NCBI RefSeq assembly: GCF_901827175.1
Contig: NZ_LR594662.1
Span: 4,030,001 to 4,094,000 of the forward strand
Direction of reading: 5' to 3'
DNA: 64,000 nt
Source: Variovorax sp. RA8
Lineage (GTDB): Bacteria; Pseudomonadota; Gammaproteobacteria; Burkholderiales; Burkholderiaceae_C
Shown here: positions 16,820 to 47,513 of the stretch, one piece after another
Numbering within the stretch: the first letter of the stretch is position 1
How the letters are laid out: every line of letters starts with the position of its first letter
Notes under the pieces: model-generated
Databases searched by the model: none
What the model saw: the letters and a program-made list of their open reading frames with translations, nothing else
What the model was told of the DNA's origin: nothing
Position numbers and translations under genes: made by a program

Positions 16820-17149
16820 TCAGTTGCTCCTGGTTGTGCGCGGCACACCCCGAGTGCGCAGCGTGCCAACCTTAGGATCGGACGAACGGCGCAAAGACAG
16901 CCGGCCCCAGGCCGCCGTCAATCGTTGCCGCAGAGGCGGCGCCGGCGTGGCGGGCACCGGCAGCAGCTCGGCCGCCTGCGCGGCCGGCAGCCGCGGCGCG
17001 AGCAGGCGAGCGACCTCGCGGTTGCCGAGGGTCTGCTGCAGCCGCAGCACCGTGCGCACGGGAAGCACGCGCCCGGACTGGAGGATGCGCTCCGCCTCCA
17101 CAAGGGCCGAACCATGCGACGACGGGACGCGTGACGGTGTATCAGGCAT
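16820..17149 (-). CDS. small eCIS-associated protein with LQ-x-LGNREV motif
   Basis: The 109-residue protein contains TVLRLQQTLGNREVARLL at about residues 33-50. This is a version of the LQRxxGNRAVxxLL motif that commonly precedes or accompanies DUF4157 domains in injection-system cargo genes. The remainder is proline-, alanine- and arginine-rich and probably disordered. Its ATG overlaps the stop of the Lgt-like gene by eight bases, so it is the last member of the island operon. It may be an adaptor or loading tag expressed on its own. No function is established. Confidence 0.6.
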   Translation of the reverse strand: MPDTPSRVPSSHGSALVEAERILQSGRVLPVRTVLRLQQTLGNREVARLLAPRLPAAQAAELLPVPATPAPPLRQRLTAAWGRLSLRRSSDPKVGTLRTRGVPRTTRSN

Positions 17150-18296
17150 GCAGGGCTCCCTTCTCTCGATCAGGCTGCTGCGCGTCGCGCAGGATCAGGT
17201 GGAAGACGCCGTGGCCGCCGGGCCGAAGCTCGCAGCACGGCTGCGCACGGGCGAGCTGCGTGATCAGGCCCGCCAGCGCCCGCGCTTCGTCCGGCTTCAG
17301 GCGGCGGTCGGCGCGTGACAGCGAATACAGCACGGTCCGCGCCTCGCGCAGCCGGCCCAGCGATTGCGTGGAGATGCCGATGGACTGCGAGGTCCGGCGC
17401 ACCGACACGGCACCCCCCTGCGATGCTTCCAGGCGCCGGACGATGTCGGCCACCTCGCTGGCATGGCGCGGATGCAGCACCGCATGCTGCGCGCGGCGCG
17501 TCCCGGCCAGGACCAGCATCGACACCGCGGCGGCCGCACCCAGCGCGAAGTGCCAGCCCGACCATGGCAACCGCCCCTGCCACTCGCCGAGAAGAGCGCC
17601 CGCGACCAGCAGCAGCGAGGTCCACTGCGCTTCGGAGAAGCGGCCCCAATGGGGCCTTGCATCGTCCCCCCGCAATTCCTCGAGCCAGATGCGCGCGACC
17701 GAATAGCTGACGACGTAGGTCGAGAGCACGGTGCCCGCCGGCCGCCCTTGCAGGAACTGCCAGGTGCCTACGGCCACGATCGAGATGACGACCAGCGCCT
17801 CGAGCACCTGCACCGGGAACAGCCGCACCCCCACGTAGCAGGCAGGAAATCCTTCGGCTGCATGGTCCTCGCCGTAGCGCACGCCCCAGCGATGCGGCCT
17901 GCCGTGGCAGCAGCCCACCATCAGGCAGCCGCAGCGTCCGCAGGCGAGGAAGACGCCGAGCCAGAGGGCGTTCAGGTCGAGGTAGGGCAGGACCGGCAGC
18001 GCGAGCAGGGACAACAGGAGCGCGGCGCTGGCGAGCACTGCCACCTCGTGGTGGTAGTAGATCAACGCCTCCCGGCCCGTCAGGATCTTGCTCACCATCG
18101 CAAGGACAAGAAAAGTGAGGACCCCGGACGCGAGAAGGCCTCCACCCACCCAATGCGAGAGTCCGGCCTCCGAGATCAGCACACCGGCAAGCGCAGTGGC
18201 GAGCACGAGCCCCATGGCGCCGCACAACTTGAAACTGTGCAGCCGCCAGCCGCACAGCACGATCGTCGGTCGAAGTGAAGAACTCACTGGCGTCAT
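17142..18296 (-). CDS. Lgt-like (prolipoprotein diacylglyceryl transferase family) membrane protein
   Basis: The 384-residue protein has about seven hydrophobic segments between residues 10 and 270 and the family-type motif ACGRCGCLMVGCCHGRP with WGVRYG. This resembles Lgt homologues that transfer diacylglycerol to lipoproteins at the inner membrane. A further, probably cytoplasmic region of roughly 110 residues (about 275-384) follows the last membrane segment and is not part of normal Lgt. The housekeeping lgt is expected elsewhere, so this copy may serve the island, for example by lipid modification or as a membrane anchor. It starts at 18296, just after the DUF4157 gene, and overlaps the next gene. 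Confidence 0.7.
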   Translation of the reverse strand: MTPVSSSLRPTIVLCGWRLHSFKLCGAMGLVLATALAGVLISEAGLSHWVGGGLLASGVLTFLVLAMVSKILTGREALIYYHHEVAVLASAALLLSLLALPVLPYLDLNALWLGVFLACGRCGCLMVGCCHGRPHRWGVRYGEDHAAEGFPACYVGVRLFPVQVLEALVVISIVAVGTWQFLQGRPAGTVLSTYVVSYSVARIWLEELRGDDARPHWGRFSEAQWTSLLLVAGALLGEWQGRLPWSGWHFALGAAAAVSMLVLAGTRRAQHAVLHPRHASEVADIVRRLEASQGGAVSVRRTSQSIGISTQSLGRLREARTVLYSLSRADRRLKPDEARALAGLITQLARAQPCCELRPGGHGVFHLILRDAQQPDREKGALHA

Positions 18297-18306
18297 GAAC
18301 GGCCCT

Positions 18307-20547
18307 TCATTTCGGCAGCATCAGCTGGTAGCGAATGATGTTCTCGTCAACGTACTTCTTCTTCTCGGCTTCGGTCGCCGGAATGCGCGTCGCTTCAAAG
18401 AACTTGGCGCGGATCGCCTCCCAGCGCGTCGAGTCGCTGCGCTTCAGCTTGGACAACAGCCTGGCGGGACCTTCGACCTGCTGCAAAAAGTTTTCATGGC
18501 CGACGATGCGCCTGTCCTTCAAGGGTTGGAGGGCCGCGATGAAGTCCTGCGGGGCGCCTTCCGCAGTCACCGCGGCCAGGACCTGGTCGGTCACCATGAA
18601 CGAGTTGCCCGGAAAGTCATCGCAATGCTCGGCGAGCCCGCGCTTGACCTGCTCCTCGGTCAGGTCCGGCTCGAAGGGATGCGCGTCGTAGAGATCTTCC
18701 GCCGGTGTCTTTCCCTTGCGGGTCTTGACGGCGTTCTCGTAGATCCACGCGCCGCGTGCGAGCGCGCTCGTGTTCTTCCAGACCACCTTCGCGCCGACCG
18801 GTGCGTCCTTCCACCGCGAATCGAGACTTCGCTCGTCGAGCCCGAGTTCATGGTTGCCGCTCGTATAGGTGTCCGAATCGAGTCCGGTCGTCTCCTGCGG
18901 CCGCAGGCGCAGATTGCTGAACTTCCTGTCGAACTCGGCATCCGTCAGCGTATGGCGCCATGCGTACAACCACGTCAGCTCGGTGAACAGCGCGCAGTCG
19001 CACTCCCAGCGGTCCAGGTGTGCGAACAGCTCATCGACCGAGACGTGCGGTTCCTTCGTCGGCGCAAAGGCCCCCTGGTACTTGCGCTTCTCTTCGCCGT
19101 AGTCGATGAGGCGCCAGTTCGCCTCGTCGAACTTCCATTCCTGCGGGTTCTTCCCCCTTGGGAACCTGCAGCCCGGCTCCGAGTCCTTCTTGCGGCGCGA
19201 AGCATCGAGGACGCGGAGGCCTTCCTGGAACGCCTGGTCCCAGGTTTTCCGAAGGGCTTTGTCGGTCTGGAGATTCGGCGCGGCGGCAGGCTTCTTGGCG
19301 CTGCCGCTGCAGCGCTGCAGTTGCAGGCCGGAACGCAGGCGGGGCGGTGATGCCTTGGCTGCTGCGTCCCCCTGGCCCTGGCGTCCGCTCCACAACGCCG
19401 TCACGGCACGCACCGCGGCGTTGTCGGCGTCCTTTTCCAGCGCGCTGTCGGCCGGGCCTCTCTTCGCCTGGGGCGGGCCGGCCGCGTGGCCGCGCTGCTG
19501 CAGGACATGCGCGAGTTCATGCGCCATCAGTGCATCGCCAACCAGCGTGCCGGGCCGGTACTCGCCGGACCCGAATGCCACATGCGCTCCGAGCGTGAAC
19601 GCGCGCGCATTGAGCTGCTCCGAGAGCTGCGCCGCCTTTGCATCGGTATGGAGGCGTACGCCGGCGAAGTCCGCGCCGAACGCCGACTCCATGCGCGTGC
19701 GCACCGCGCCCGGCAGGGAACGACCACTGCCGAGCTGATCGCGAACCGACACCGGGTCTGCTTCCCGCGCGCCCCCAGGCCGGGCCTTGAAGAACATCCC
19801 GCCGAACGCGCCGAGCATGCCGCCACCGGGCATCGCGCTGCCCGGCAGGTCCTCGGGCATGCCCACGATCTCTCCCGTGCGGGCCCACGCGTCCACGCTC
19901 CGTGCCACGCGCGCCGTCACGAACGGGATGTAGTCGCGCGCGCTGGCCGCGGAGGCGGCTTCGGGCGCGTACTTGAGGATGGCCCGTTCAAGCTGAGCGG
20001 CGCTGCGCTCTTCGTAATAGCCCAGCCAATGATCGATCCAGGGGCAGCCCTGCGAGTCGCGCCCGGTGCCGCTCAGGCCTGCATCCACCGTCGCGCACAC
20101 ATTGGCGCGCAATGCAGCCATGAATTCGCGCTTGCGCATGCGCCCGCCGGTCAGCTCGGCTTGAGCTTCGTCCTTGTCTTCGGCGATCAGGCTCGATGCC
20201 GCGCCGCGGGGCGCGGCGGCTGGCGCCGCATCGGCCTCTGCGACGCGCGCCTGCGTGGGTGCCCCCGCCGCCGGCGCTTTCGGTGCCAGTCGCAGCTGCT
20301 CCGCTTCTTCCTCGCAGGAAGCGCACTTGCGCCGGATCGAATCCCCGGGCGAGGATGCGGCCGACCACTTCGACGCACGGCGCTCCAGCGCCTTGCCCGA
20401 CATGACCGCGTGCGCCATGCGATCCGCTTCTCGCTCGAACGCGTCGCCAGCAGGTCCGATCGGTTCCTTGAAGGCAGGCGTGGCGGTGCCGCGACAGGCG
20501 TCGCCGCATTTGTGTCGGGGGGTGGAAGCGAACACGGGAGCATTCAA
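18307..20547 (-). CDS. DUF4157 protein, putative eCIS cargo with transglutaminase-like C-terminus
   Basis: The 746-residue protein has a basic N-terminus followed by PIGPAGDAFEREADRMAHAV, then a region with RDSQGCPWIDHWLGYYEE. A DUF4157 domain follows, with HELAHVLQQ (HExxH at residues 343-347). These parts are shared with the neighbouring 587-residue protein. The C-terminal 330 residues are different. They contain WECDCALFTELTWLYAW and, later, GAKVVWKNTSALARGAWIYEN, which recall the catalytic cysteine region and the following region of Bacillus-type transglutaminases; this is a tentative reading. DUF4157 proteins are frequent cargo of contractile injection systems. The start is TTG at 20547 overlapping the previous stop (TTGA). 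Confidence 0.75.
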   Translation of the reverse strand: MNAPVFASTPRHKCGDACRGTATPAFKEPIGPAGDAFEREADRMAHAVMSGKALERRASKWSAASSPGDSIRRKCASCEEEAEQLRLAPKAPAAGAPTQARVAEADAAPAAAPRGAASSLIAEDKDEAQAELTGGRMRKREFMAALRANVCATVDAGLSGTGRDSQGCPWIDHWLGYYEERSAAQLERAILKYAPEAASAASARDYIPFVTARVARSVDAWARTGEIVGMPEDLPGSAMPGGGMLGAFGGMFFKARPGGAREADPVSVRDQLGSGRSLPGAVRTRMESAFGADFAGVRLHTDAKAAQLSEQLNARAFTLGAHVAFGSGEYRPGTLVGDALMAHELAHVLQQRGHAAGPPQAKRGPADSALEKDADNAAVRAVTALWSGRQGQGDAAAKASPPRLRSGLQLQRCSGSAKKPAAAPNLQTDKALRKTWDQAFQEGLRVLDASRRKKDSEPGCRFPRGKNPQEWKFDEANWRLIDYGEEKRKYQGAFAPTKEPHVSVDELFAHLDRWECDCALFTELTWLYAWRHTLTDAEFDRKFSNLRLRPQETTGLDSDTYTSGNHELGLDERSLDSRWKDAPVGAKVVWKNTSALARGAWIYENAVKTRKGKTPAEDLYDAHPFEPDLTEEQVKRGLAEHCDDFPGNSFMVTDQVLAAVTAEGAPQDFIAALQPLKDRRIVGHENFLQQVEGPARLLSKLKRSDSTRWEAIRAKFFEATRIPATEAEKKKYVDENIIRYQLMLPK

Positions 20548-20996
20548 TGAACGCGTCGCCCGTAACGCTCGCGGAACGCGTCCAGCTCGTCGAGCGCAAG
20601 GTACTCGTCACCGAAGTACCCTCCGAAGCGAGAGGTCAGCTTCAGGTGGCCGCCCTGCTCGGACCATGGCCACTGTTCGTCGACCCAACCTTCGCCGGCG
20701 GGGATGCCATGGAATGCAGCGAAGCGCGCGACGCCTCCCGCAGCGCGGGCCGGGGCCGCGTAGACGAACCGCGTCAGGACGTACAAGCGGCTCGCCGCCG
20801 AAACACCGAACTCGCCATGCGCCAGGCGCTCTTCCTCGATGTAGCGCACAACCACCCTGCGAAGCGCGGTGTCGTCCAGCATGGCGAGTTGCCGTGCGGC
20901 TGTCTCGATGCGGCTCGCCTCCGCGGGATCGAGGTCTTCGAGATCGGCCCAGGCGGGCATCGCTCGCAGCACGTTCAAGGCGTTGTCTTCTGTCAT
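20544..20996 (-). CDS. hypothetical protein between two DUF4157 cargo genes
   Basis: The 150-residue protein has no family I recognise. It begins MTEDNALNVLRAMPAWADLE, has an acidic helical N-terminal half, and ends in an aromatic- and glycine-rich part (EQWPWSEQGG, FGGYFGDEYLALDE). The ATG at 20996 has GGAGG eight bases upstream, so the open frame to 21038 is not used. Its stop overlaps the TTG start of the 746-residue cargo gene, which ties their expression. Position and size suit an immunity protein, chaperone or adaptor for a neighbour, but this is inference. Confidence 0.65.
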   Translation of the reverse strand: MTEDNALNVLRAMPAWADLEDLDPAEASRIETAARQLAMLDDTALRRVVVRYIEEERLAHGEFGVSAASRLYVLTRFVYAAPARAAGGVARFAAFHGIPAGEGWVDEQWPWSEQGGHLKLTSRFGGYFGDEYLALDELDAFRERYGRRVH

Positions 20997-21034
20997 CGAC
21001 GTCCTCCGATCGTTCGGCAGCACAGCCGGCGGTG

Positions 21035-22798
21035 TCACGGTGTTCCAACCTGAGTCTGCGGCGTTTTCGCGATGTCATCGTAGTCCACCCTCAGCGTGTG
21101 GTCCTGTGCACTCCCGTCCGACCAACCAGCGGGCGCCGAAGTCATCGTCGGCAGCGACAGGGCGGCCGGCACGGTATGACCCCATGGAGGCTCGGTGAGG
21201 TTGTAGCCCTCGACGATCGCGACCTTGCCGATGATTTCGACGCGACCCTTGGTATTGGCGTTCTCGCTGGTGGTGCGGAACGTGTCGGATTGGTGGGGGC
21301 TGGCCGAAGAGCCGACGTACACCTTGCCATTGCGGGCCTCCCACCCTTCCCAATACTCCAGGCCCGAGTTGTTGGGGACGACCGTACCCGAGGCGTCCTG
21401 GACTGCGCCCTGGAACGTGACGTGCTGGATCACCCAGCCGTTCACGCCAGCACCCACCGACCACTGCACCTGGTACTCGGCGCTCCCGCGCTGGTTGAGC
21501 GCGGTCGCTGCCTTCTTGACCGCGATCGCCACCGGACTCATCTTCATGCTTCCGCGCGAGCATCGCGACAACTGCAGGCCGGATTTCAGTCCCGGGGCCA
21601 TCCTGGCGGCACCATTCTTCAAGCCACCCCACAAGGAGGCGACGACGCCGATCGCGGAGCGATCCGCGTCTTGTTCGAGCTGGCTTTCGCTTCCCGCCGG
21701 CCCCATCGTCGAACGGGCCTCGGGACCGCCCTGCTGCACCACATGCGCCAGTTCGTGTGCGATCAGTGCATCGCCGGCGACGGTGCCCGGCCTGAACTCG
21801 CCGGCGCCGAAGGCAACATGTTGTCCCACCGTGAAAGCGCGCGCGTTGAGGTGGTCCGAGAGCTTCGCCGCGCCAGCGTCCGTATGGAGCCTCACGCCGC
21901 CGAAGGTGGTACCGAAGGCTGATTCCATGCGCGAGCGCAGCTGGCCAGGAAGCGCCTGTCCGACGCCCAGTTTCTGGCGCACCGAGATCGGGTCATCGGG
22001 GCGCGCGCCACCGGCCCGCGCCTTGAAGAACATCCCTCCGAATGAATCGAGCACCGCCCCTCCCGGTGCCTGGATTGTCGGAATGCCTTCCGGCACTCCC
22101 ACGATCTCGCCAGTCTTTGCCCAGACCTGCGCACTGCGCCGAACGCGTCGGGCGACGATCTGGATGTAGTCTTGCGCGTCGCGGGCCGCGCGGGACTCGG
22201 GGGCGTACCGGTGCAACGCCCGTTCGATCTCGGCGCCGCTGCGCGCACCGTAGTATCCAAACCAATGGTCGATCCAGGGGCACCCTTGCGAGTCCCGGCC
22301 GGTACCTGCCAGTGCGGCATCCATATTGGCACAGACGTCGGCGCGCAGCGCTGCAATGAACGCACTCTTGCCCATCTGCCCGGGGCCGGGGGTAGCCTCG
22401 TCGGACACAATGCGCGCCGCCGCGCGGGCGGGGGGTGCTGACCCATCGGCCTCATTCGAAGCGCCTTGTCGCGAAGCGGCCTCCGGCACCCTGTCCGATG
22501 CCGCCGCGGGAGCCGTGGTTCGGGCTGCTTCCGAAGGCGCGTCGTCCCGCGCCGCCAGGCCACGGCGGAGGGTCGAGTCGTCCGGTCGCTCTGCGGCGGC
22601 CCAGCCGCCCGCGCGAGTTGCACACTGCATGTCGCCCGACAACATCGCATCGGCCATGCGATCGGCCTCATGCTCGAAGGCATCGTCGGCCGGCCCCGCA
22701 GGCTTCCGGAACGGGGCGCTTCGCCGGGTCGGCACATGGCCGGCTGCGCCGCGCTGCGTGCTCGCGGCCTGGGTGGCGGTGCTGTTCGTTCGGCTCAT
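21035..22798 (-). CDS. DUF4157 protein, putative eCIS cargo with unknown C-terminal domain
   Basis: The 587-residue protein shares its first 400 residues or so with the 746-residue neighbour: KPAGPADDAFEHEADRMADA, RDSQGCPWIDHWFGYYG, and the DUF4157 domain with HELAHVVQQGG (HExxH at 348-352). After LQLSRCSRGS its C-terminal 170 residues are unrelated. They look beta-rich, with many tryptophans, tyrosines and glycines (YWEGWEARNGKVYVG, VEIIGKVAIVEGYNLTEPPW). I do not recognise that domain. The shared module plus a variable end is the architecture of polymorphic toxins. The ATG at 22798 lacks a clear ribosome binding site. Confidence 0.75.
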   Translation of the reverse strand: MSRTNSTATQAASTQRGAAGHVPTRRSAPFRKPAGPADDAFEHEADRMADAMLSGDMQCATRAGGWAAAERPDDSTLRRGLAARDDAPSEAARTTAPAAASDRVPEAASRQGASNEADGSAPPARAAARIVSDEATPGPGQMGKSAFIAALRADVCANMDAALAGTGRDSQGCPWIDHWFGYYGARSGAEIERALHRYAPESRAARDAQDYIQIVARRVRRSAQVWAKTGEIVGVPEGIPTIQAPGGAVLDSFGGMFFKARAGGARPDDPISVRQKLGVGQALPGQLRSRMESAFGTTFGGVRLHTDAGAAKLSDHLNARAFTVGQHVAFGAGEFRPGTVAGDALIAHELAHVVQQGGPEARSTMGPAGSESQLEQDADRSAIGVVASLWGGLKNGAARMAPGLKSGLQLSRCSRGSMKMSPVAIAVKKAATALNQRGSAEYQVQWSVGAGVNGWVIQHVTFQGAVQDASGTVVPNNSGLEYWEGWEARNGKVYVGSSASPHQSDTFRTTSENANTKGRVEIIGKVAIVEGYNLTEPPWGHTVPAALSLPTMTSAPAGWSDGSAQDHTLRVDYDDIAKTPQTQVGTP

Positions 22799-22828: not shown

Positions 22829-24850
22829 TTAGAAGGTCAGCTTCCGCAAAGCCGCCGGGAGGATGTCCGGCCCGTGCGACAGCACCTCGGGATGCGCCCG
22901 GATGATCGCTTCCAGGCGCGCATTCATGTTCATGATCCGGCTCAGCGCAACGTCCGGAGACAAGCCTGGCGGGACCGCATTGCCCAGCGTCTCAGTCACC
23001 CAGCGGTTGTATTCGGGATGATGGCCCCGCATGTTGAAACGATAGGACCTGCCCTTCCAGTCATACCAGCCCCTCAGTTGGCCGTGCTCTGGAAATTCCT
23101 TGATCAGGTTCAGATCTGCATCGACATGCGTGCCCGCTGACTCGAACAGCGCCTTGTTCTTGCTCAGATAGCGCGTGGCAATGTGATGGTCCTCCTCGAG
23201 GCTCACTCCCGCCTGCTTCCGAGTGCGGGTGACGTGCTTGCTCTCCTGCTCCTGGAGAACTGCCTTTTGCTCGAGTTCCTGGCGTTCCGTGAACTCTTCG
23301 AGAACGTGCTTGCGCCGCAGCTCATCGGGGGTCAGCGTCTCGGCTTTCGTTGCCGCGGGACTTGACTTGGGCGCTTCTGCCGCAGGCTTGGCCACGCTGG
23401 CCTCCTTGCCCACGTTGGAAGGATGAACCTTCGGCGGCTTCAGATCCGCCACCGTCGCCGGCGAAGTCCGCGTCGAAGTCACCATGCGCGACTCCATGAC
23501 ATTGGGCAGCGGCCCGGGCGCGCCACGGCCCACGCCGGCCGCTGCCTTCTCCCCCGCACCGACCACCGCCGCCTCGCTGAACAAGCCCACCAGCGCCTCG
23601 AAGGCTTCGACCGCCTTGTTGACCACGCCCTCGAACGCCTTCAAGGCGCCCTTGACCGCGCCGCGCAGCAGCCCCACCGCCTCGACGAAGATGCCCTTGA
23701 GCCAGGTGAACGCCTCGACGGCCTTGCCGGCCACGAACTCGGCGGCCTTGCCGACCAAGCTCGCGCCCTTGGCGATCAGGTTGCCGATCGCCTCGCTGAA
23801 GACCAGCAGGAGCACTTGCGCGATCAGGGTGCCGATGACCTCGCCGATGCCCTTGCCCATCTCGTAGAAATCCTTGCCGAGGAAATCGAACAGCGCGTGC
23901 GCACCGCCGGCGCCGATGCTGCGCGCCTTCGAAAGCGCCATCTGCATCAGGCCTTCGAGAAAGCCCGAGAACTTCTGCACCGTGCCCTTCGGATCGGTCA
24001 CGAAGGCTGCCAGCGAGGTGCCCAGCTCGCCCATCAGCTCACCGAGCTTGAGGTTGAGCTGCGCGACCTTCGCCCGCCGCTCGGCGCTGATGGCGATCCC
24101 GAGGGGTGACCATTTCGCCAGCCAGTCGAGTCCCGCGACGCCCAGTTTCACCAGGCCCACGACGCCCTTCACGAGGTCGGTGATGGGGCTCACCAGGCCG
24201 ATCACCAGGCCGACCAGGTAGCCTCCGTAGAACTTGACCGCATTCCAGGGCCGCATGAGCTCGGAGAGATGGCTCTTCGCGGCATCGGCGCGGCCGGACT
24301 TGACGTCCGACTTCAGCCCCCCGACGAATCCTTCCAGGACCGCCTTGATGAAAGGCCAGGACCGGTCGCTGGTCGCCTTCCGGCCGACAGTGTCGACGAG
24401 GCCGGTGCCCAGGGAGAACTGCTCTTCCTCTTCCGGTGCGCGCTGGATGCGCTGCTGCGCCAGGGCGGGGACCTGCTGCGCGGACGGCTCGCGTGCGTCG
24501 CGTTCATGCGCCGAGTCGCGTGCGTCTACTTGCGGGTTGAGCGAAGCCGCGGCCCAGTGCTGCTGCGCGACGTGCCGAAGCTCATGCCTCAGCAGCGCAC
24601 GGCCCGTCGGCGCCTCAGGGGCGTACCGCCCCGCCGCGAAGGCGATGTCACTGCCGATCGTGTAAGCCGAGGCGTGCAGGGACTTCGCTGCGGCGTTCGC
24701 CGGCGGTCCATCGTGCACCCGGACGTGGCCGAAGCCGAAGCCGTAGCGATCGAAGGCTTCCCGTTGGACGTGGGGAGGAAGCGGCTTGCCGCTGCCGCGC
24801 ACGGCATCGACCGCACGCGCGGCAGGTGTCCGCTTCGCATGGGCGCGCAC
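22829..24850 (-). CDS. DUF4157 polymorphic-toxin-like protein with AHH/HNH-type nuclease C-terminus
   Basis: The 673-residue protein starts with a short DUF4157-like domain (QREAFDRYGFGFGHVRVHDG) whose peptidase motif is HELRH at 89-93. A long middle region (about 190-430) follows, with repeated amphipathic or hydrophobic helices rich in KGA and VGK. A charged linker leads to the C-terminal 120 residues with EEDHHIATRYLSKNKALF and RGHHPEYNRWVTETL. Paired HH motifs of this type mark the AHH/SHH group of HNH-superfamily toxin nucleases. The hydrophobic middle may aid translocation. The absence of an obvious neighbouring immunity gene of known type is notable. It lies directly after the baseplate gene block. 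Confidence 0.75.
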   Translation of the reverse strand: MRAHAKRTPAARAVDAVRGSGKPLPPHVQREAFDRYGFGFGHVRVHDGPPANAAAKSLHASAYTIGSDIAFAAGRYAPEAPTGRALLRHELRHVAQQHWAAASLNPQVDARDSAHERDAREPSAQQVPALAQQRIQRAPEEEEQFSLGTGLVDTVGRKATSDRSWPFIKAVLEGFVGGLKSDVKSGRADAAKSHLSELMRPWNAVKFYGGYLVGLVIGLVSPITDLVKGVVGLVKLGVAGLDWLAKWSPLGIAISAERRAKVAQLNLKLGELMGELGTSLAAFVTDPKGTVQKFSGFLEGLMQMALSKARSIGAGGAHALFDFLGKDFYEMGKGIGEVIGTLIAQVLLLVFSEAIGNLIAKGASLVGKAAEFVAGKAVEAFTWLKGIFVEAVGLLRGAVKGALKAFEGVVNKAVEAFEALVGLFSEAAVVGAGEKAAAGVGRGAPGPLPNVMESRMVTSTRTSPATVADLKPPKVHPSNVGKEASVAKPAAEAPKSSPAATKAETLTPDELRRKHVLEEFTERQELEQKAVLQEQESKHVTRTRKQAGVSLEEDHHIATRYLSKNKALFESAGTHVDADLNLIKEFPEHGQLRGWYDWKGRSYRFNMRGHHPEYNRWVTETLGNAVPPGLSPDVALSRIMNMNARLEAIIRAHPEVLSHGPDILPAALRKLTF

Positions 24851-38510: not shown

Positions 38511-38792
38511 CTACCCTCCGATCTCGACCAGCGGCATGCCCATGACGATGGGCGCGCCGCAGCCGCTCATGTCGCCCACGCGGGCCGCGGGCCGCCCGCC
38601 GATGAGCACGGTCATGCTGCCCTTGACGAGGGGTGTGGGCGGATGCGGGCCCGCCACCGGCGGCATGGAGCAGGCGTGCATGTCGCCCACTACGGCGGCC
38701 GGCATGCCGCCGATCAGCACCGTTGCCACGCCGGGCCCGGTGACAACGCCCGGATGGGCCGTGGGGTCGCCGACTCTGGCTGCGGGGGGCAT
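38511..38792 (-). CDS. PAAR-domain spike tip protein (Afp10-like)
   Basis: The 93-residue protein has two PAAR-type repeats, MPPAARVGDPTAHPG...VLIGGMPAAVVGDMHAC and later TVLIGGRPAARVGDMSGCG. Histidines and cysteines are placed to hold the zinc or iron at the tip. PAAR proteins form the sharp cone on the VgrG-like spike and can carry effectors; this one is the minimal form without an extension. A perfect GGAGGA precedes the ATG at 38792. It lies directly behind the spike gene. Confidence 0.94.
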   Translation of the reverse strand: MPPAARVGDPTAHPGVVTGPGVATVLIGGMPAAVVGDMHACSMPPVAGPHPPTPLVKGSMTVLIGGRPAARVGDMSGCGAPIVMGMPLVEIGG

Positions 38793-41335: not shown

Positions 41336-41338
41336 GGC

Positions 41339-42076
41339 TCAGACCCTCCCCATTCGTTCGCGGTACGCGATCAACCGGCGGTCGATCTGCTGTATCACGA
41401 GGCCGGTGAGCGCCTCGACGCTGACGGCCGGGGCGGCCGCCGGCGCCCTGCCCTGCTCCCATGGCATGGGCGCCGTCTGCGCCGGCATCCATTCGCTGGC
41501 CGGCGCCGCCCCCGCCGGGGCCGGCATGCGTTGCGGGGCGGCCAGCGCCAGGGGCTTCGATGGCGGCACCAGCTCCTGCCGCAGGGCGCGGCGATGCACG
41601 CGCGTGACGATCTCTGCCGCCTGCGCGACCACCCGCGAAGCACCCGGCAGCTGCGCGGCCGGATCGAGCCTCGGCGCGGGAGCCCCATTTCGAGAGCCTG
41701 CGGCCTCGCGCCCGCGATGGCCCTGCGCGAAGACGGGCGGCGGAAAGCGCAGCGCGGGATAGGCGGGACGCTCGCGTTCGACGGCTGCCACCGGTGGCGG
41801 GGCAGTAGCGTCGCCCTGCCGATGCAGCGATGCGCGCGGCGCGTGTACGAGGAGCTCCCGCGTCTGCCGCATCAGCGTCGCCGCCGGCATGCTGACCGGC
41901 CGCACCACGCCGAGGTGCGCATGCACCTGCAGGATCGCCCGCCACGAGGTGACGAGCACCTGCGACACCAGGCCGCCGCCGCGCTGCAGCAGCACCATCG
42001 CGCCACGCGCATGCCAGGCGTCGCGACGGCCGTGCTGCCGCCGCAACTGCCGTGCCCATCCTTGCCATCTGTTCAC
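41339..42076 (-). CDS. eCIS hypothetical protein with C-terminal VIQQIDRR motif
   Basis: The 245-residue protein has a basic, tryptophan-containing N-terminus and a long proline/alanine-rich middle. The only conserved-looking part is the C-terminal VEALTGLVIQQIDRRLIAYRE-type helix. Proteins with this end are often found between the small DUF6760-type gene and the LysM gene in eCIS clusters. The start is a GTG at 42076 with AGGAGG five bases upstream. The role is unknown; chaperone or baseplate linker functions are possible. No tape measure features (long heptads, membrane segments) are visible. Confidence 0.65.
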   Translation of the reverse strand: MNRWQGWARQLRRQHGRRDAWHARGAMVLLQRGGGLVSQVLVTSWRAILQVHAHLGVVRPVSMPAATLMRQTRELLVHAPRASLHRQGDATAPPPVAAVERERPAYPALRFPPPVFAQGHRGREAAGSRNGAPAPRLDPAAQLPGASRVVAQAAEIVTRVHRRALRQELVPPSKPLALAAPQRMPAPAGAAPASEWMPAQTAPMPWEQGRAPAAAPAVSVEALTGLVIQQIDRRLIAYRERMGRV

Positions 42077-42105: not shown

Positions 42106-42324
42106 CTACGGATTCGCTTCGCTGTTCGCCCGCTCGTTGATCGCCGAGATCTCTTCGACCCAGCGCTGCCGCTGCGCATGCTCGAGCGTCAGCACCTCCT
42201 GCGGCGACCAGTGGAAGTGATAGGCGATGAAGGCTACCTCCCTGTACAGCGCGGGCAGGGGGTAGCCTACGATCCCCCCGGGCTGTTCATCTCCAGCGCG
42301 AACTCGTGGGCGCACTTCGGGCAC
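42106..42324 (-). CDS. small DUF6760-like eCIS protein
   Basis: The 72-residue frame contains VGYPLPALYREVAFIAYHFH and then LTLEHAQRQRWVEEISAINE. This matches the small DUF6760-type proteins that follow the tail assembly gene in many eCIS operons. The true start is uncertain: ATG at 42324 and GTG at 42315 both lie inside the end of the previous gene, an overlap of about 50-58 bases. The core domain begins near the IVGYP segment. The function is not established. Confidence 0.75.
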   Translation of the reverse strand: MPEVRPRVRAGDEQPGGIVGYPLPALYREVAFIAYHFHWSPQEVLTLEHAQRQRWVEEISAINERANSEANP

Positions 42325-42632
42325 TCGGCCTCGATGGTCGCCCGGCCGCTGCGGTTGATGCGGTTGTAGAACTCCTGCAGGTAGGCGAGGTCGGCCGCAT
42401 ACAGCCCCTCGACCACCTTCGGCGTGACCTGCGCCACCGAGCCCAGGCGCGCGATCACGCGCGACAGCAGGATCACCGTGAGGTAGGCCTCGTTGCTCTG
42501 CACGCGCGGGTCCTTCAGCGGCAGGATCTCGTCGGCCGCCGTGGCCAGCCGCATCACGCCCTCGCGGTGAAGATCGCCCTCGGCATCCACGTAGCCGAGG
42601 GGCAGCGTGAACTCGTATTCGGTCTGGAACAT
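42267..42632 (-). CDS. tail assembly-like protein of the eCIS
   Basis: The 121-residue protein begins FQTEYEFTLPLGYVDAEGDL and continues with a region typical of phage tail assembly chaperone-like proteins (MRLATAADEILPLKDPR, LTVILLSRVIARLG). Near the C-terminus there is a CPKC pair (ECPKCAHEF) that may bind metal. It lies directly behind the tube gene, as chaperone-type genes do in phage tails. The start at 42632 follows GGGAGAG. Confidence 0.7.
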   Translation of the reverse strand: MFQTEYEFTLPLGYVDAEGDLHREGVMRLATAADEILPLKDPRVQSNEAYLTVILLSRVIARLGSVAQVTPKVVEGLYAADLAYLQEFYNRINRSGRATIEAECPKCAHEFALEMNSPGGS

Positions 42633-42648: not shown

Positions 42649-43074
42649 CTATGCGCGTTCGACGCGCTCGCAGCTGACGGTCAGGCTGTCGAGCGAGACG
42701 TCGTTGCCCTTGGCGTTGAAGTCGGGCCCGTCGTACTTGCTGGGCCAGGCACTGAAGAAGTTCCAGCGCACCTTCTCCTGCCCCGCATCGTCCTGCAGGA
42801 TGATCGAGCCGTTGCGCCGGTCGATGGTGCCGTTGATGGCGGCCAGGTGCCAGTCGTAGAGCTCGCGCGAATCCGTCACGCCCCACTTGAGCGTGATGTC
42901 GGGGTAGGAGATCTTTCCGGGCAGCTTGCGCACCGTCGCGGCCTCGCCGCCTTCGCGGTACTCGACCACCTCGATGTTCGAGCCGAAGCCGCTGCATTCG
43001 GAGAAGCCGGCCTGCACGATGCCATCGATCTCGACGAGAAATCGAAAGTTTCTGTAGGGGTCCTTTCTGGCCAT
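42649..43074 (-). CDS. contractile injection system inner tube protein
   Basis: The 141-residue protein matches the T4 gp19 / Afp1 tube family: DPYRNFRFLVEIDGIVQAGF, then GGEAATVRKLPGKISYPDIT, then a WHLAAINGTIDRRNGSIIL segment. It would stack as hexamers to form the conduit that the sheath drives outward. Only one tube gene is seen, in contrast to two in Afp. GGAGAG precedes the ATG at 43074. The gene starts a few bases after the sheath stop. Confidence 0.95.
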   Translation of the reverse strand: MARKDPYRNFRFLVEIDGIVQAGFSECSGFGSNIEVVEYREGGEAATVRKLPGKISYPDITLKWGVTDSRELYDWHLAAINGTIDRRNGSIILQDDAGQEKVRWNFFSAWPSKYDGPDFNAKGNDVSLDSLTVSCERVERA

Positions 43075-43085: not shown

Positions 43086-44267
43086 CTATTCACCGGTGGT
43101 TTGCTGGATGCGGAAGATCACGAACTCGGCAGGCTTGGTGACCGCCACGCCGATCTCGGTGATGACCTGGCCGAGCTCGCGAAGGCTCGGCGGGTTGGTC
43201 TCCGCGTCGCACTTCACGTAGAAGGCCTGCTTGGGCGTCTCTCCGAACAGGGCGCCGTCGCGCCACTGGTTGTAGAGAAAGTCGCTCACCGAGCGGATGA
43301 TTCGCTGCCACAGCGCCGGGTTGTTGGGCTCGAAGACGACGAACTGCGTGCCCTCGTCGATCGACTCCTTGAGAAAATTCATGAAGCGCCGGACGTTGAG
43401 GTAGGTGTACTCGCCGTTGCGCTTGCCGCCGAGCGTGCGCGCGCCGTACACCATGGGTGCGCCGCCGAAGGGCCGTATGACGTTGATGCCGTCGGGGTTC
43501 AACGCCTTCTGCTTGTCTTTGTCGATGGGGCGCTCCAGGTCGACGATGCCCAGCACCGCCTCGTTGGCCGGCGCCTTGTGCACGCCGCGTGCGGCATCGA
43601 CGCGCGCCCAGATGCCGGCGACGTGTCCGCTCGGCGGCTGGTCGATGAGCTCGGGCTCCGCCCCGCCCGGCACGTACAGGGGGTTGAAGACCTTCAGCCA
43701 TGGAAAGTAGATGGCCCCGTAGCTGAACTGGTCGGGGGTGGCCGGCCCGCCTACGGGCATCGGGCCGCCGTAGATGTCGGCCGGCGTGCTGTCCGAGGCC
43801 GGCAACTTGACGCCGTCGAGCAGCGCCACACGGTCCTGCATGTTGAAGCAGTGCGTCATGATCTGGACCTTGCGGGCGACCGGCTCGACGCCGGGCGCGG
43901 CGACGATCGCGATCTCGTCGAAGGGTTTCAGCTTGTCGAGCGACGGATCCAGATTCGCCATGTCGCCCGCGGCGACGGGCAGCACATAGCAGGCGGTGCC
44001 GCCGTTGTTGAAGAAGCCGAACACTGCCAGCGCCAGCGTGCGATTGGCGGTGGTGTAGATGGGCGTGGTGTCCGTCGGCGCGGCGCCCTTGATGAAGTTG
44101 GCGAACTCGGTCCAGTTGGTGAACTTCTTCGGCTTGCCGACGTCCGCAGGGTCGAGCCGGTCGGCCACGCCGATGAAGGCCGCCGTGCTGGTGCCGACGC
44201 CTGCGATCGGCCTGGCCAATGGTGGGACTTCTTCGACGTACACCCCAGGCGCTTCATAGTTAGGCAT
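43086..44267 (-). CDS. contractile tail sheath protein
   Basis: The 393-residue protein starts YEAPGVYVEEVPPLARPIAG, the conserved tail sheath N-terminus (arm for the sheath mesh). It ends in the C-terminal sheath domain with NGEYTYLNVRRFMNFLKESI, FEPNNPALWQRI and FRIQQTTGE. Sheath subunits polymerise around the tube and contract on firing. A single sheath gene of moderate size suggests a minimal eCIS. GGAGAAA lies nine bases before the ATG at 44267. Confidence 0.96.
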   Translation of the reverse strand: MPNYEAPGVYVEEVPPLARPIAGVGTSTAAFIGVADRLDPADVGKPKKFTNWTEFANFIKGAAPTDTTPIYTTANRTLALAVFGFFNNGGTACYVLPVAAGDMANLDPSLDKLKPFDEIAIVAAPGVEPVARKVQIMTHCFNMQDRVALLDGVKLPASDSTPADIYGGPMPVGGPATPDQFSYGAIYFPWLKVFNPLYVPGGAEPELIDQPPSGHVAGIWARVDAARGVHKAPANEAVLGIVDLERPIDKDKQKALNPDGINVIRPFGGAPMVYGARTLGGKRNGEYTYLNVRRFMNFLKESIDEGTQFVVFEPNNPALWQRIIRSVSDFLYNQWRDGALFGETPKQAFYVKCDAETNPPSLRELGQVITEIGVAVTKPAEFVIFRIQQTTGE

Positions 44268-44285: not shown

Positions 44286-45116
44286 TCAAGTCAGTTGAAC
44301 GTCGTAGCCGCCCAGCGCGGGTGCCGGGACGACGATGGCCCGGTCCTGCGTCACTGCACCCGCCGTGACGCGCAGCGTGAAGTTGCCGCCCGGTATGGCC
44401 GACAACGAGAACCTGCCTTCGGCATCGGTGAGCGTGCTGCGGCCGCGCTCGACGATGCGCACGCTCGCGTTGGCGACCGGCGTCGTGGCCGCATCCCGCA
44501 CCGTGCCGCCGATGCGGAAGAAAGGCGCGTCGAGATCGGCGCCGTCCGGCATGCTCTTCAGCTCGATGCCGCTGGTGATGACGCTCGGGTACTGCGCGGT
44601 GTCGAAGACCTTCAGCGACACGGTGATCGACACGAGGAGCGATGCCTTGATGCGGTTGCCGATCGCGGCCCAGAACTCCGCGGGGTTGCGCACGCCGTCG
44701 GGCTGCACCACCATCATCGGCAGCGGCGGCTTCTGGAGCTGCAGCTGCGGCGTGAGGAAGGCAGGCGGAATGAGGGGCGTGCCGGCGATCAGCTGCAGGA
44801 CCTGGGCCAGCAGCTGGTGCTCCTGCTTGGGCAGGTCGGCGCCGCCCACAGGCCACGCGGTCACGAGATAGAGGCAACTGGCACGGTAGGCAGGCGGCTC
44901 GACGAGGGAATGCCCTCCGACCCGGCGCGTGACGCTTTCGCTGGACCGAAGCTCGAGGTTCTCGCGAACCTCGAACAGAAAGACATTCACCGTCGTCTGA
45001 TCGATCGCGTAGGGATCGGTGGGCCGGTCGAAGCGGATCGCGGCGTCGCGCAAGGGCGGCGGAAGCCCGGGCTGCTTGAGGAAAGCCTCGAGGCTCTCGG
45101 TGACCTCATGAATCAT
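44286..45116 (-). CDS. DUF4255 tail-terminator-like protein with carboxypeptidase-regulatory domain (Afp16-like)
   Basis: The 276-residue protein has the DUF4255 domain in its first 200 residues (VTESLEAFLKQPGLPP, VNVFLFEVRENLELRS, LYLVTAWPVGG). DUF4255 corresponds to Afp16/PVC16, which caps the distal end of the tube and sheath. Residues of about 195-270 form a carboxypeptidase-regulatory-like fold (GGTVRDAATTPVANASVRIV, ADAEGRFSLSAIPGG-type), an addition not present in the Afp protein. The ATG at 45116 follows GGAGGGG; it overlaps the ATPase gene end. Confidence 0.88.
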   Translation of the reverse strand: MIHEVTESLEAFLKQPGLPPPLRDAAIRFDRPTDPYAIDQTTVNVFLFEVRENLELRSSESVTRRVGGHSLVEPPAYRASCLYLVTAWPVGGADLPKQEHQLLAQVLQLIAGTPLIPPAFLTPQLQLQKPPLPMMVVQPDGVRNPAEFWAAIGNRIKASLLVSITVSLKVFDTAQYPSVITSGIELKSMPDGADLDAPFFRIGGTVRDAATTPVANASVRIVERGRSTLTDAEGRFSLSAIPGGNFTLRVTAGAVTQDRAIVVPAPALGGYDVQLT

Positions 45117-47232
45117 CACGCCCCTCCACAGTCAGTGCTTCGACCTGCTGCAGGTAGGGGCCCAGCTCCGCGCCCGCCACGCGGCGTCCCGATTTCTCGA
45201 TCTCGCGCCGCGCCGCCCACAGCAGGTGCTCGGTGCGAAGCTCGCCGCCGTCCGCGGCCGCCAGGAAGGCCGCAGCCACCGCGATGTTCTTCACCGCGCC
45301 GCCGGGCAGCTTGAACTGCGTGGCCATGAACTCGAGGTCGAGGTCCCTGCTGCGCGGTACCTGCGGCGGCCAGATGGACTGCCACAGGCGGCGCCGGCTC
45401 TCCTCGTCGGGAAAGGGAAACTCGACGATGAAGCTGAGCCGCCGCGTGAAGGCGGCGTCGAGGTTCTGGCGCAGGTTGGTCGCCAGCACGCTCAAGCCCT
45501 CGTGCTCCTCCATCTTCTGCAGCAGATAGGCGACTTCGATGTTGGCGTAGCGGTCGTGGGCGTCCTGCACCGTGGTCCGCTTGCCGAAGAGGGCATCGCA
45601 CTCGTCGAAGAACAAGATCGCGTTACCCGCCCTTGCCGCGGAGAAGAGCCTGTCGAGGCTCTTTTCCGTTTCGCCGATGTACTTGCTCACGACCTGCGAC
45701 AGGTCGATCTTGAAGAGCTCCAGCCCGAGATCGTTCGCGATCACCTCGACCGCCATCGTCTTGCCTGTCCCCGGCGGCCCTGTGAAAAGCGCGCTCAGGC
45801 CCTTGCCGAGCGAGAGCTTGCGGTCGAAGCCCCAGTCGCCGTAGACCACGTGCCGCAGGCGCGCCTGCCGGCACACCTCCTTCAGCTGTCCGATCTGGTC
45901 GGCGGGAAGCACCAGGTCGCGCCAGCCGTAGCAGGGCTTGATCTTCTGCGCAAGGGTGCCGGGATCGCGTGCGATCTGCAGCCGTGCGGCCTGCGCCAGC
46001 ATGGAGAGGTCGGCACGCGTGCCGGCCAGTGCCGCCTGCCGGGCCGCATCGCCGGCGGCAGCGCGGATCTGCGCATTGCCGAGCCCATAGCGCGAGGCCA
46101 GCTCGTCGATGCCGCGGTCGTCCAGTTCGATGTGGCGCTCGCGCAGCTCGGTGCCCCATTGGGTCCGGCGTTGCGCGAAGGTCGGCGTGGCGATCGCGAT
46201 CGTCGCCAGGGTCGTGAAATGCGCGCCGCAAGGGCGCTCCCCTGCCGCCACGATGACCTGGGCCGTGTCCTCCAGGCCGGCTTGCAATGCCCTCGCTTCG
46301 CCGCTCTTCTCTGGCGCGAGCAGTGCATCGAAGTCGGAGAGATAGAGGACGGCATCGAGCATCCGGGCCTCGCGCAGCAGCGGGTCGAGCGCGGCATCGA
46401 AGTCGCTGCCGAGCGCTGTCATCCTGCCGAGGTCCACGGCGAGCAGCGGCCTGCGAAGCCTGGCGGCAAGCCTGGCCGCCGCGCCGTCCTTCGCCGCGCC
46501 GGCCGGCCCTTCGAGATAGAAGTGCAACCTTTCGCGGGCATCCAGCGCACGGGCCAGGGCACGGTCGAACGGATCGGTGTCCGAAGCTCGGGGTTCGGTG
46601 GGCATCGCCTCCAGCCGCGCGAACGACGCCAGCCGCGCATCGAGGCCGGGCTGTCCCAGCAGGAAGCGCACCACGGACTCCTCGAGCTTCAGATGGTGCG
46701 CCAGCAATGGCGGGACCGGGCCACCGCCGTCAGGCACCAGCTGCAGCAGCTTGTGGCGCACGAGCGGTGCGTCGCCGGCCAGCCGCCGGCGGCCGACGAT
46801 CTTTGCCTCGCGCGATGCGCACAGGAGATTCAGGGCCAGGTCCACGGTGGGTCGCCGGCGCGTCACATCATCCTGCAGGTAAGCGAAGAGCCGCTCGTAT
46901 CGGAGATCGACCTCCGGCGCGAGCGCGATAAGCAAGAAGTCCAGGTCGATCGCGTCGAGGCCGAAGGCATCCCGCAGCCACGGAAAGCGCGAGCCCGCCG
47001 GCATCGACGTGCCATCGGGTTCGCCGCCTGCGAGGGAGGGCTCGCCGGGGCTGCGCCGAATGAGGCGCTGCACGTCGTCCGCCGTGATGTAGAGACCGCG
47101 ATAGGGTTCCGCCTGCCCGGCCGGGGCGGAGGAGGCTGCGTCGGCCGCGGTGGTGGCCCGCTCCAGCATGCGATCGAGCCGGCCGAGCGCGACCCACAAG
47201 CCTTCCAACTGAAAGTCGGGGACGGCGGTCAA
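45106..47232 (-). CDS. AAA+ ATPase of the eCIS (Afp15-like)
   Basis: The 708-residue protein has an N-terminal region with no known motif and a C-terminal AAA+ module. Walker A GPPGTGKT is at about residues 484-491, Walker B ILFFDECDALFG near 537-548, and an arginine-finger/sensor region FPFPDEESRRRLW follows. Afp15-type ATPases are needed for assembly of the particle. The start is a TTG at 47232 overlapping the winged-helix gene stop (TTGA), with AGGAG six bases upstream. The longer open frame to 47625 overlaps that gene and is rejected. Confidence 0.93.
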   Translation of the reverse strand: MTAVPDFQLEGLWVALGRLDRMLERATTAADAASSAPAGQAEPYRGLYITADDVQRLIRRSPGEPSLAGGEPDGTSMPAGSRFPWLRDAFGLDAIDLDFLLIALAPEVDLRYERLFAYLQDDVTRRRPTVDLALNLLCASREAKIVGRRRLAGDAPLVRHKLLQLVPDGGGPVPPLLAHHLKLEESVVRFLLGQPGLDARLASFARLEAMPTEPRASDTDPFDRALARALDARERLHFYLEGPAGAAKDGAAARLAARLRRPLLAVDLGRMTALGSDFDAALDPLLREARMLDAVLYLSDFDALLAPEKSGEARALQAGLEDTAQVIVAAGERPCGAHFTTLATIAIATPTFAQRRTQWGTELRERHIELDDRGIDELASRYGLGNAQIRAAAGDAARQAALAGTRADLSMLAQAARLQIARDPGTLAQKIKPCYGWRDLVLPADQIGQLKEVCRQARLRHVVYGDWGFDRKLSLGKGLSALFTGPPGTGKTMAVEVIANDLGLELFKIDLSQVVSKYIGETEKSLDRLFSAARAGNAILFFDECDALFGKRTTVQDAHDRYANIEVAYLLQKMEEHEGLSVLATNLRQNLDAAFTRRLSFIVEFPFPDEESRRRLWQSIWPPQVPRSRDLDLEFMATQFKLPGGAVKNIAVAAAFLAAADGGELRTEHLLWAARREIEKSGRRVAGAELGPYLQQVEALTVEGRDDS

Positions 47233-47513
47233 TGCAAGCTCCTGGATGACGATGTGCGGGCTCGGGCTGGGCGCACGGCTCGATAGACCGTCAGGCCATC
47301 GGCGCAGCTCCAGGCTTCGATGCGGCCGCTCGCGAGCAGGCTCTCCAGGGCTGCGGCCACATCGCGGCGCGCGTCGTCGCGGCGCTGGCGCACCAACCAC
47401 CAATCGCAGATGCCTTCGAGCGAATCGCAGGCATCGGGATGGGCGGTGATATAGCGCAGGATGGTCTGCGCCACTTCCTCGATCGACGATGAACAGGATG
47501 CCACGGCCAGCAT
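47229..47513 (-). CDS. winged-helix domain protein at the head of the eCIS operon
   Basis: The 94-residue protein (SIEEVAQTILRYITAHPDAC, then GICDWWLVRQRRDDARRDVA and LLASGRIEAW) has the pattern of a small winged-helix domain. Proteins of this kind often precede the ATPase gene in eCIS loci, as PVC/Afp clusters of other bacteria show. The start is uncertain: ATG at 47513 has GGAG too close, and a GTG at 47504 is better spaced. The open frame goes on to 47633. It may regulate the operon or fuse functionally to the ATPase. Confidence 0.65.
   Translation of the reverse strand: MLAVASCSSSIEEVAQTILRYITAHPDACDSLEGICDWWLVRQRRDDARRDVAAALESLLASGRIEAWSCADGLTVYRAVRPARARTSSSRSLH

Follow-up and report, generated by a model that had tools for sequence, protein, structure and literature searches.

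The solved sheaths closest to that of the system described here are those of Streptomyces coelicolor, whose contractile injection system (CIS) is represented in the Protein Data Bank (PDB) by the deposits 8BKY and 8BL4 (PMC10066040) and is described as cytoplasmic (PMC10066040; PMC12237407). The Streptomyces baseplate deposit 9GTP has a wedge made of two copies of Cis11 and one of Cis12 (PMC12237407). In the thylakoid CIS (tCIS) of Anabaena, the crown round the cage is built from six trimers of All3314, the crown protein Cis19 (PMC8894136), and elsewhere up to four fibres have been placed on baseplates of the Tail_P2_I type, with the fibres termed eBAP3 likened to TssK (PMC12923769). The window analysed here is a stretch of 64,000 nucleotides from Variovorax sp. 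RA8 (contig NZ_LR594662.1, positions 4030001-4094000, in a 7.42-Mb genome of four contigs), and its gene content identifies within it a complete-looking and rare CIS of the extracellular CIS (eCIS) superfamily. The explanation that we favour for the whole, at a probability of roughly 0.8, is that the locus would make one complete contractile injection particle together with its toxins.

The system is encoded by 26 minus-strand genes that run almost without gaps from 47513 down to 16820. With four starts corrected (the ATPase to 47232, the hub to 40682, the second Baseplate J protein to 34621 and anchor b to 29656), no overlap between neighbouring genes exceeds 11 bases and no gap exceeds 30, the start of the DUF6760 gene being unsure; searches run before this correction used slightly different starts for those four, the hub being 33 residues short. 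All core domains of the eCIS superfamily, as set out in PMC8213781, occur in this one operon. Matches above the curated Pfam cut-offs were obtained for the single contractile sheath protein (393 amino acids, 43086..44267; PF04984 and PF17482), the tube protein of T4 gp19 type (42649..43074; PF06841, 148.6 bits), the CIS_tube protein with a LysM domain, a putative tube initiator of Cis7 type (40682..41335, meeting the hub gene at 40682; PF19266, 125.3 bits; PF01476, 36.3 bits), the OB-fold spike (38808..39473; PF04717, 69.7 bits), the PAAR tip (38511..38792; PF05488, 85.9 bits), the gp25-type sheath/baseplate protein Cis9 (38093..38506; PF04965, 84.2 bits) and two Baseplate J proteins, the first of Cis11 type (1156 amino acids, 34626..38096; PF04865, 48.9 bits) and the second shorter (711 amino acids, 32486..34621; PF04865, 35.6 bits). 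They were also obtained for a Cis12-type protein joining an NHL propeller to Tail_P2_I (26516..28660; PF09684, 48.6 bits; PF01436, 46.6 bits), which scores 95.8 bits against NF053768 where the cut-off is 860, for the Pvc16_N (DUF4255) cap or terminator protein with its CarboxypepD_reg domain (44286..45116; PF14065, 77.4 bits) and for the AAA ATPase with winged-helix domain of Cis15/Afp15 type (45106..47232, TTG start; PF00004, 107.9 bits; PF22977, 121.9 bits), as well as for the DUF6760 protein, the LGT domain of a membrane protein and the eCIS_core domains of three cargo proteins. The VgrG/Afp8-like hub (39489..40682) has no Pfam match and is named from an NCBIfam VgrG-related match below its cut-off (NF033848, 48.9 against 275 bits) and from PHROGs tail and hub matches (phrog_52, 45.8 bits). 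An original prediction, made from the sequence alone, had named these phage-tail parts as they are named here and had described a tight single-strand operon, which holds; its count of about 22 genes was a slight underestimate.

The best PDB match of the sheath is 8bky (E 4.5e-91), followed by 8bl4 and 9ezm, then by the Anabaena structure 7b5h and then by others that include Afp and PVC; the first Baseplate J protein finds 9gtp first (chain 9gtp_1K, E 1e-41). Homology to contractile phage tails is also what speaks for a prophage tail or its remnant. Against this, the window proteins scanned (some flank open reading frames (ORFs) lay outside the scan) include no head, portal, terminase or integrase product, the flanks hold molybdenum-enzyme and cofactor genes, and the AAA ATPase, Pvc16_N and the DUF4157 (eCIS_core) proteins are present. 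Moreover, none of the 105 phage records that match the sheath reaches 60% identity, the highest among the 20 listed being 39%, and three cover 80% of the sheath. A prophage tail was accordingly rejected and is, in our estimate, extremely improbable. The original prediction had likewise preferred an eCIS to a prophage, naming capsid, terminase and portal genes nearby as what would overturn it; none was seen among the window proteins scanned, and the superfamily and the exclusion of a prophage both stand, whereas the word 'extracellular' goes further than the sequence does, the closest solved sheaths being those of the cytoplasmic Streptomyces system.

Relatives of the locus were sought by tblastn with 25 of its proteins, gene 0 being left out; genes 1-19 denote the series from the ATPase to anchor d. 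The locus is nearly entire and in order, at 47-96% identity, in Mitsuaria sp. PDC51, where only the end of a 245-residue protein is matched, a 164-residue protein is unmatched, and three cargo genes rather than two follow the first. It is likewise nearly entire and in order in Mitsuaria sp. GD03876, as far as the contigs of that genome were read. Mitsuaria is filed by taxonomy under Roseateles, Burkholderiales, and a betaproteobacterial host, as first proposed, is thus plausible. Outside the phylum, genes 1-19 recur in order at 34-80% identity on the conjugative plasmid pWB1 of Rhodococcus sp. WB1 (NZ_CP015530.1), and again in order in Embleya NBC_00888, where a DUF4157-type match lies between ATPase and cap and anchor a is found by profile only; the 245-residue protein is unmatched in both. 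Because PDC51 has almost all of these genes in the same succession, and WB1 has genes 1-19 less one, the locus is not a chance assembly. That its mix of accessory proteins differs from the Afp, PVC and MAC layouts is a statement of the original prediction; the layout is not unique, since genes 1-19 less one are shared with Rhodococcus sp. WB1 and Embleya and nearly all genes with Mitsuaria.

A sheath tree of 43 rows, built after short matches (up to 150 residues) and duplicate sequences had been removed, places the window with PDC51 (support 100/100), joined by Rhodococcus WB1 (96/97) and then by Nostoc (91/84). This group stands apart from a clade of 29 rows from the same genus, family and order plus one Rhodococcus opacus row, the 29-row clade and the wider fork being open or modestly supported. 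Identity to Rhodococcus WB1 is 57% for the hub, 64% for the tube and 80% for PAAR, and is lower to other CIS of the window's own genus (23-28%, at most 51% and at most 51%, respectively). The sheath finds matches in 55 of 198 genomes searched, the window's own included (with one match), and in 128 of 72,556 plasmid records, whereas anchor b is found in one of 101 genomes of the genus (E 1e-20) and one of 349 of the family (E 1e-15), its own each time. So rare and patchy a lineage fits horizontal spread, in either direction, and its sisterhood with a locus on a conjugative Rhodococcus plasmid suggests that such machines move between phyla. Plasmid pn3 of Nostoc sp. UHCC 0926, typed as conjugative, also carries a CIS with an NHL-Tail_P2_I fusion; it has two sheaths, one of them 49.5% identical to that of the window.

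The most distinctive part of the locus is a set of four proteins described at first as an accessory 'GQ-L' family. The family is borne out, and its members can now be named as predicted baseplate-anchor proteins of CIS13/crown type. They are anchor a (942 amino acids, 29661..32489; NF053767, E 6.1e-6), with a long extra region that is absent in Rhodococcus WB1, anchor b (329 amino acids, 28667..29656; E 1.6e-7), anchor c (257 amino acids, 25720..26493; E 9.9e-22) and anchor d (276 amino acids, 24878..25708; E 7e-13), which has a Cys-rich N-terminus. None of the four has a Pfam match, and each matches the NCBIfam model CIS13_fam (NF053767) over 76-87 residues near its N-terminus, below the full-length cut-off of 370 bits. 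Scores of 18.7-77.7 bits, from the N-terminal domain only, cover the four window proteins, three of the four from Rhodococcus WB1 and two from R. opacus, so that by this evidence the GQ-L proteins share the CIS13 domain without qualifying as NF053767 equivalogs. A profile of 35 anchor domains, for which six of the 41 tree rows were left out (four from locus L001, one from L078 and one from L091), retrieves eight PDB sequences at E 10 or below. Two are convincing, namely the tCIS crown protein All3314/Cis19 (7b5h_AA, residues 12-91, E 2.3e-9) and 9wt0_a (E 1.9e-4), a chain that bears the name PKD domain-containing protein; all of the remaining six lie above E 0.5. By tblastn, anchor c also has a relative on a Haloferax larsenii plasmid (residues 11-251, 28% identity).

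In a tree of 41 anchor domains, from which one off-frame ORF had been dropped beforehand, window proteins a, b, c and d each group with two Mitsuaria sequences and with the Rhodococcus WB1 protein of the same gene position. Four Embleya proteins join the groups one apiece and in order, with support of 95/93 for a, 94/89 for c and 100/98 for d, while the four-row group b (100/100) takes in its Embleya member only through an open fork (87/85). Since all four groups span Mitsuaria, Rhodococcus and Embleya with gene order unchanged, the four anchors appear to be old parts and not fresh copies, and a recent tandem duplication of their genes was ruled out by the four cross-phylum groups. Most simply, the four would have a single origin that predates the split between the actinobacterial and proteobacterial loci, with each member presumably keeping a place of its own. 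Some features of the tree weigh against the favoured explanation of the locus. The open fork of group b is shared with two domains of other CIS from the window's genus, group d is weakly supported (82/10), and the tree has further open forks and long branches (3.3 for the row Embl_1); as labelled, groups a and c each come out as a single clade in 2% of bootstraps, because separately labelled Embleya rows lie inside them. An AlphaFold2 model of anchor c with nine sequences reached a mean predicted local distance difference test (pLDDT) of just 38.3.

CIS13-type domains were also met in other CIS stretches read, with two or three in each of six genomes of the same genus (G002, G043, G051, G054, G056 and G091), two each in two genomes of the same order and in R. 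opacus, and one on a Nostoc plasmid. Two stretches with sheath matches (G062:C70 and G107) showed no other gene of the set and, where searched (L062, L063, L070 and L071), no anchor domain, and none of six stretches of viral contigs that matched the anchor b pattern was confirmed.

How such anchors would be used bears on a wider question, namely what decides whether a machine of eCIS type is released, docks at a membrane or kills its own cell. Two rival accounts of this locus stand at nearly equal odds. One, which we put just under an even chance, is a classic released eCIS in which lysis frees the particles and up to four fibres, CIS13-domain proteins both short and long, bind the targets. 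It draws on the eBAP3 and eBAP5 fibres described for Tail_P2_I systems, for which up to four fibres are modelled per baseplate and 23.4% of loci are multi-fibre (PMC12923769), on the long extension of protein a, and on DUF4157 cargo, typical of eCIS (PMC8213781). It sits less well with the size of the anchors, three of four in the window and all four in Rhodococcus WB1 being just 257-335 amino acids long against an eBAP3 domain of about 200 (PMC12923769), and no lysis gene was seen among the operon proteins scanned. The Rhodococcus WB1 anchors are all short (275-335 amino acids), anchor a having 278 there against 942 in the window. Among the proteins submitted to Pfam, NCBIfam and PHROGs, none was assigned to an Afp13/Pvc13-type fibre family, no direct comparison with Afp13 having been made.

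The other account, to which we give somewhat less than even odds, is a membrane-docked machine resembling the type VI secretion system (T6SS) or the CisA-dependent system of Streptomyces, with anchors and an Lgt-like protein docking the baseplate at the inner membrane and contact or stress causing it to fire. Its support comes from the nearest solved sheaths, which belong to the cytoplasmic Streptomyces system whose firing is described as needing the membrane protein CisA (PMC10066040; PMC12237407), and from the H. larsenii relative of anchor c, the CIS of another haloarchaeon being membrane-bound with Cis12 and Cis13 as proposed contacts (PMC11566945); the Lgt-like gene, moreover, is CIS-linked in two phyla. 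However, by a simple hydropathy scan anchors b, c and d have no hydrophobic segment and anchor a has one weak segment outside its anchor domain, the scan of locus proteins brought up nothing TssJLM-like, and several sister loci gave no Lgt-like match. Anchoring in the manner of Anabaena, through a transmembrane helix of Cis13, was rejected, no such helix being found in the anchors by that scan. A TssK-like view of the anchors takes its comparison from PMC12923769 alone.

The Lgt-like protein (17142..18296; PF01790, 67.4 bits) is polytopic and has an extra C-terminal region; among the 25 locus proteins scanned it alone has more than two hydrophobic segments. Within 198 genomes a full match was found only in the window's own, the one other match (E 6e-4) being a 33-residue piece, and 398 genomes of the phylum screened at E 1e-10 again gave only the own genome, in a search of low sensitivity with three or four candidates per genome scored in the rows shown. 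The gene is present in both Mitsuaria genomes, which, having been found through this CIS, are no independent test. A single one of the 72,556 plasmid records matches it, and that record is an R. opacus plasmid with a two-sheath CIS operon, on which the Lgt-like gene lies divergently, 69 bp from the first gene of the operon, the cap gene; the chance that a sole match should fall on a sheath-bearing record is about 0.2% (128/72,556). These matches link the Lgt-like family to CIS in two phyla. As the R. opacus CIS comes from another branch, the link would have arisen, or been passed on, across lineages. The same plasmid (L087) encodes two CIS13-domain proteins, one of 1140 amino acids, and two BTAD-type regulators adjoin its Lgt-like gene.

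An ordinary housekeeping Lgt was ruled out for the window protein, as the genome has a separate full Lgt (273.9 bits) and the CIS-linked protein lacks E151 and the HGGL loop. Aligned with the E. coli enzyme and with the housekeeping Lgt of the window's genome, the Lgt-like family keeps the positions R143, R239, E243, R246 and Y235, R143 and R239 being invariant in the alignment, whereas the HGGL loop (with H103) is missing and Cys stands at the positions of N146 and E151. In E. coli, the Lgt variants E151A/Q and R143A/E/K are inactive (PMC4728403). Because residues needed in E. coli are missing and the genome has a full Lgt of its own, a working Lgt is doubtful, and a lipid-binding or docking role is favoured for what would be a candidate membrane partner of the machine. 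Nevertheless, neither the Rhodococcus WB1 nor the Embleya stretches read contain an Lgt-like match, and the other CIS-bearing relatives searched gave no full one; these absences count against a membrane partner of this kind and mean that the gene is not needed by every such machine. It may instead belong solely with the cargo genes, as an immunity protein or a lipid enzyme, and be no machine part, an option that we hold to be a serious one at rather less than even odds: the cargo block, here as in Mitsuaria, has the gene at its end, and its product keeps the five Lgt positions, yet in R. opacus it adjoins the cap gene and not cargo. A more specific proposal, that an Lgt-fold family was recruited as a CIS dock or trigger independently of CisA and acts with four distinct TssK- or crown-like adaptors on the baseplate, we regard as unlikely. 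If true, it would make this a cell-anchored injector fired by contact or stress in a Gram-negative bacterium, instead of a released eCIS. Searches of an open-access library found no link between the Lgt-like family and CIS, the listed papers that mention both eCIS and Lgt being on other subjects by title.

The cargo section foreseen by the original prediction is confirmed as three eCIS_core (DUF4157) proteins, which account for all such matches in the genome. Cargo 1 (22829..24850; PF13699, 90.8 bits) has its eCIS_core domain at the N-terminus and a C-terminus weakly like AHH (HNH-type) nucleases (PF14412, 13.2 bits against a cut-off of 22.3); the C-termini of cargo 2 (21035..22798; 102.1 bits) and cargo 3 (18307..20547; 104.2 bits) have no assigned family. 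The PDC51 counterpart of cargo 1 is 71% identical over residues 1-509 and then different, as when toxin ends are swapped. Judged by eye, cargo 2 and cargo 3 are alike in their N-terminal part, and both match the same PDC51 genes; the last 307 residues of cargo 3 gave no PDB match and its last 317 residues no plasmid match. Between them lies a 164-residue protein (20544..21038) with no family above cut-off and no PDC51 match, which from its position alone may be an immunity protein or a chaperone. The cargo proteins of PDC51 (L089:3657-10988) have differing ends, two with further HExxH-like motifs by eye and one with LysM-looking repeats. DUF4157 proteins commonly carry the motif LQ..(G)N.EV.R(M)L close to their N-terminus. 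The motif also marks a short gene that follows the Lgt-like gene in all three loci, in the window (16820-17149), in PDC51 (L089:12702-13067) and in GD03876 (L090:8484-8690); the window protein has 109 residues, reads LQ..GN.EV.R.L and has no Pfam domain.

The extent first proposed for the locus, 16820-47513, describes the operon correctly and stops short of its probable regulator. Divergent from the operon lies a sigma-54 activator, or bacterial enhancer-binding protein (bEBP; 47833..48882, plus strand; PF00158, 207.5 bits), which has no room for a receiver domain because its sigma-54 domain starts at residue 16. PDC51 has a 67% orthologue in the same divergent place. Among the 14 best matches outside the own genome in 100 genomes of the genus (E 1.2e-81 or below), eight lie within 2.0 kb of a sheath match and a further four at 26-28 kb; the remaining two, with no sheath match on their contig, count against so close a tie. 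A sigma-54-like -24/-12 site (47539..47554, minus strand) agrees with 10 of the 12 consensus letters and keeps GG/GC. Sites of at least 10 letters face the operon both in the window (at 47554) and in PDC51, against a background of about 0.065 per kb per strand. In seven of nine further loci (L098-L102, L104 and L105) a site of this kind lies between regulator and sheath, on the strand of the regulator; in L103 there is one on the CIS side, and L106, where the regulator has no link to a CIS, lacks one; the loci being related, these occurrences are not independent events. The activator and the site probably belong to the locus, with the activator as its regulator, and they would offer a testable switch that could turn on a silent system.

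Taken together, these parts suggest how the machine may work. By sequence, a piston of LysM-tube protein, hub, spike and PAAR lies inside a single-protein sheath, and the baseplate combines gp25 with two unlike Baseplate J proteins and a single NHL-propeller Tail_P2_I protein; the cap protein, the AAA ATPase, three DUF4157 cargo proteins and four CIS13-domain anchors with separate orthologues complete the set. The activator would switch on the operon through sigma-54 RNA polymerase, assembly would take place in the cytoplasm, and the four anchors may sit as crown- or fibre-like trimers round the baseplate, three of them little more than anchor modules and protein a with a long exposed extension that could touch the target or the cell envelope. 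The ATPase may help to load DUF4157 cargo, which contraction would drive through a membrane. Most speculatively, the Lgt-like protein could be the membrane partner for docking or triggering of the baseplate, as CisA is in Streptomyces.

The remaining genes are less telling. Gene 0 (94 amino acids, 47229..47513) is an open frame with clearly similar residues in PDC51, by eye, and has no Pfam match. Between tube and LysM-tube genes lie those for a chaperone-like tail assembly protein (42267..42632; phrog_508, 33.4 bits), for the DUF6760 protein (42106..42270; PF20546, 68.9 bits), which has no usual start codon at its uncertain start, and for the 245-residue protein (41339..42076), of which the C-terminal 28 residues alone are matched in PDC51 and which has no Pfam, NCBIfam or PHROGs match. 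This last gene comes before that of the LysM tube protein; at this place the Nostoc plasmid locus encodes a hypothetical protein of about 524 amino acids. Outside the operon, a molybdenum-hydroxylase-like set (coxL/S/M/G-like, 11642-16030, in which coxG alone was tested by Pfam and the others were named by eye) lies to the left and molybdenum-cofactor genes (moaA, mobA-like and moeA, 49017-52326) to the right, so that the CIS looks as if inserted between related blocks. The GC content is 0.66-0.74 across the CIS operon (16000-48000) and 0.62-0.64 in the left flank (1-16000). The coxG-like gene is present in four of 100 genomes of the genus, the own one counted, and the other three, compared as possible empty sites, showed no right-flank gene besides distant ABC-transporter matches in two. 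Plasmid DNA gave no near-match to the operon stretch 16800-41000, and to the left flank just two short matches in a 2Fe-2S gene. About 6 kb past the regulator, a plus-strand ORF (54721-56523) encodes a domain resembling lytic transglycosylases (79.6 bits to the PHROGs family 'lytic tail protein'), the sole lysis-like domain among the window proteins scanned.

Set beside known systems, the locus differs from the T6SS (types i-iii), whose TssJLM membrane complex was not seen among the locus proteins scanned. With E. coli Lgt (PMC4728403) its membrane protein shares the fold region, to which it adds the C-terminal one. The Halogeometricum borinquense CIS resembles it in Cis12/Cis13-type parts and DUF4157 effectors and is membrane-bound by experiment (PMC11566945), whereas the window system is known from its genes. 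The eBAP3-type multi-fibre eCIS have in common with it a Tail_P2_I baseplate, adjoining fibre genes and a model of up to four fibres, the window's membership of that type being judged by description only (PMC12923769). The window's anchor domain is related to the Anabaena thylakoid crown protein Cis19 (7b5h), but Anabaena Cis13 has a transmembrane helix that the window anchors lack by the simple scan, and one crown protein there stands against four anchors here. With the Streptomyces coelicolor CIS (type IId) the locus shares the best PDB matches of its sheath and first Baseplate J protein and the Cis11/Cis12 wedge. That system is reported without tail-fibre-like parts, whereas the window has four anchors, and its CisA is bitopic while the Lgt-like protein is polytopic, no search for CisA itself having been made. 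A four-fibre baseplate is thus not new as such (PMC12923769); what is new here is the four-way orthology of the anchors across phyla. The window system has a single sheath, its four anchors have remained separate from one phylum to another, and it draws attention to a CIS-linked family of membrane proteins. Among its closest relatives is the Rhodococcus WB1 CIS, which differs in a 278-residue anchor a, in other cargo, in having no Lgt-like match in the stretch read and in its place on a conjugative plasmid, and which shares the order of genes 1-19, apart from the unmatched 245-residue protein, together with four orthologous anchors and the NHL-Tail_P2_I fusion.

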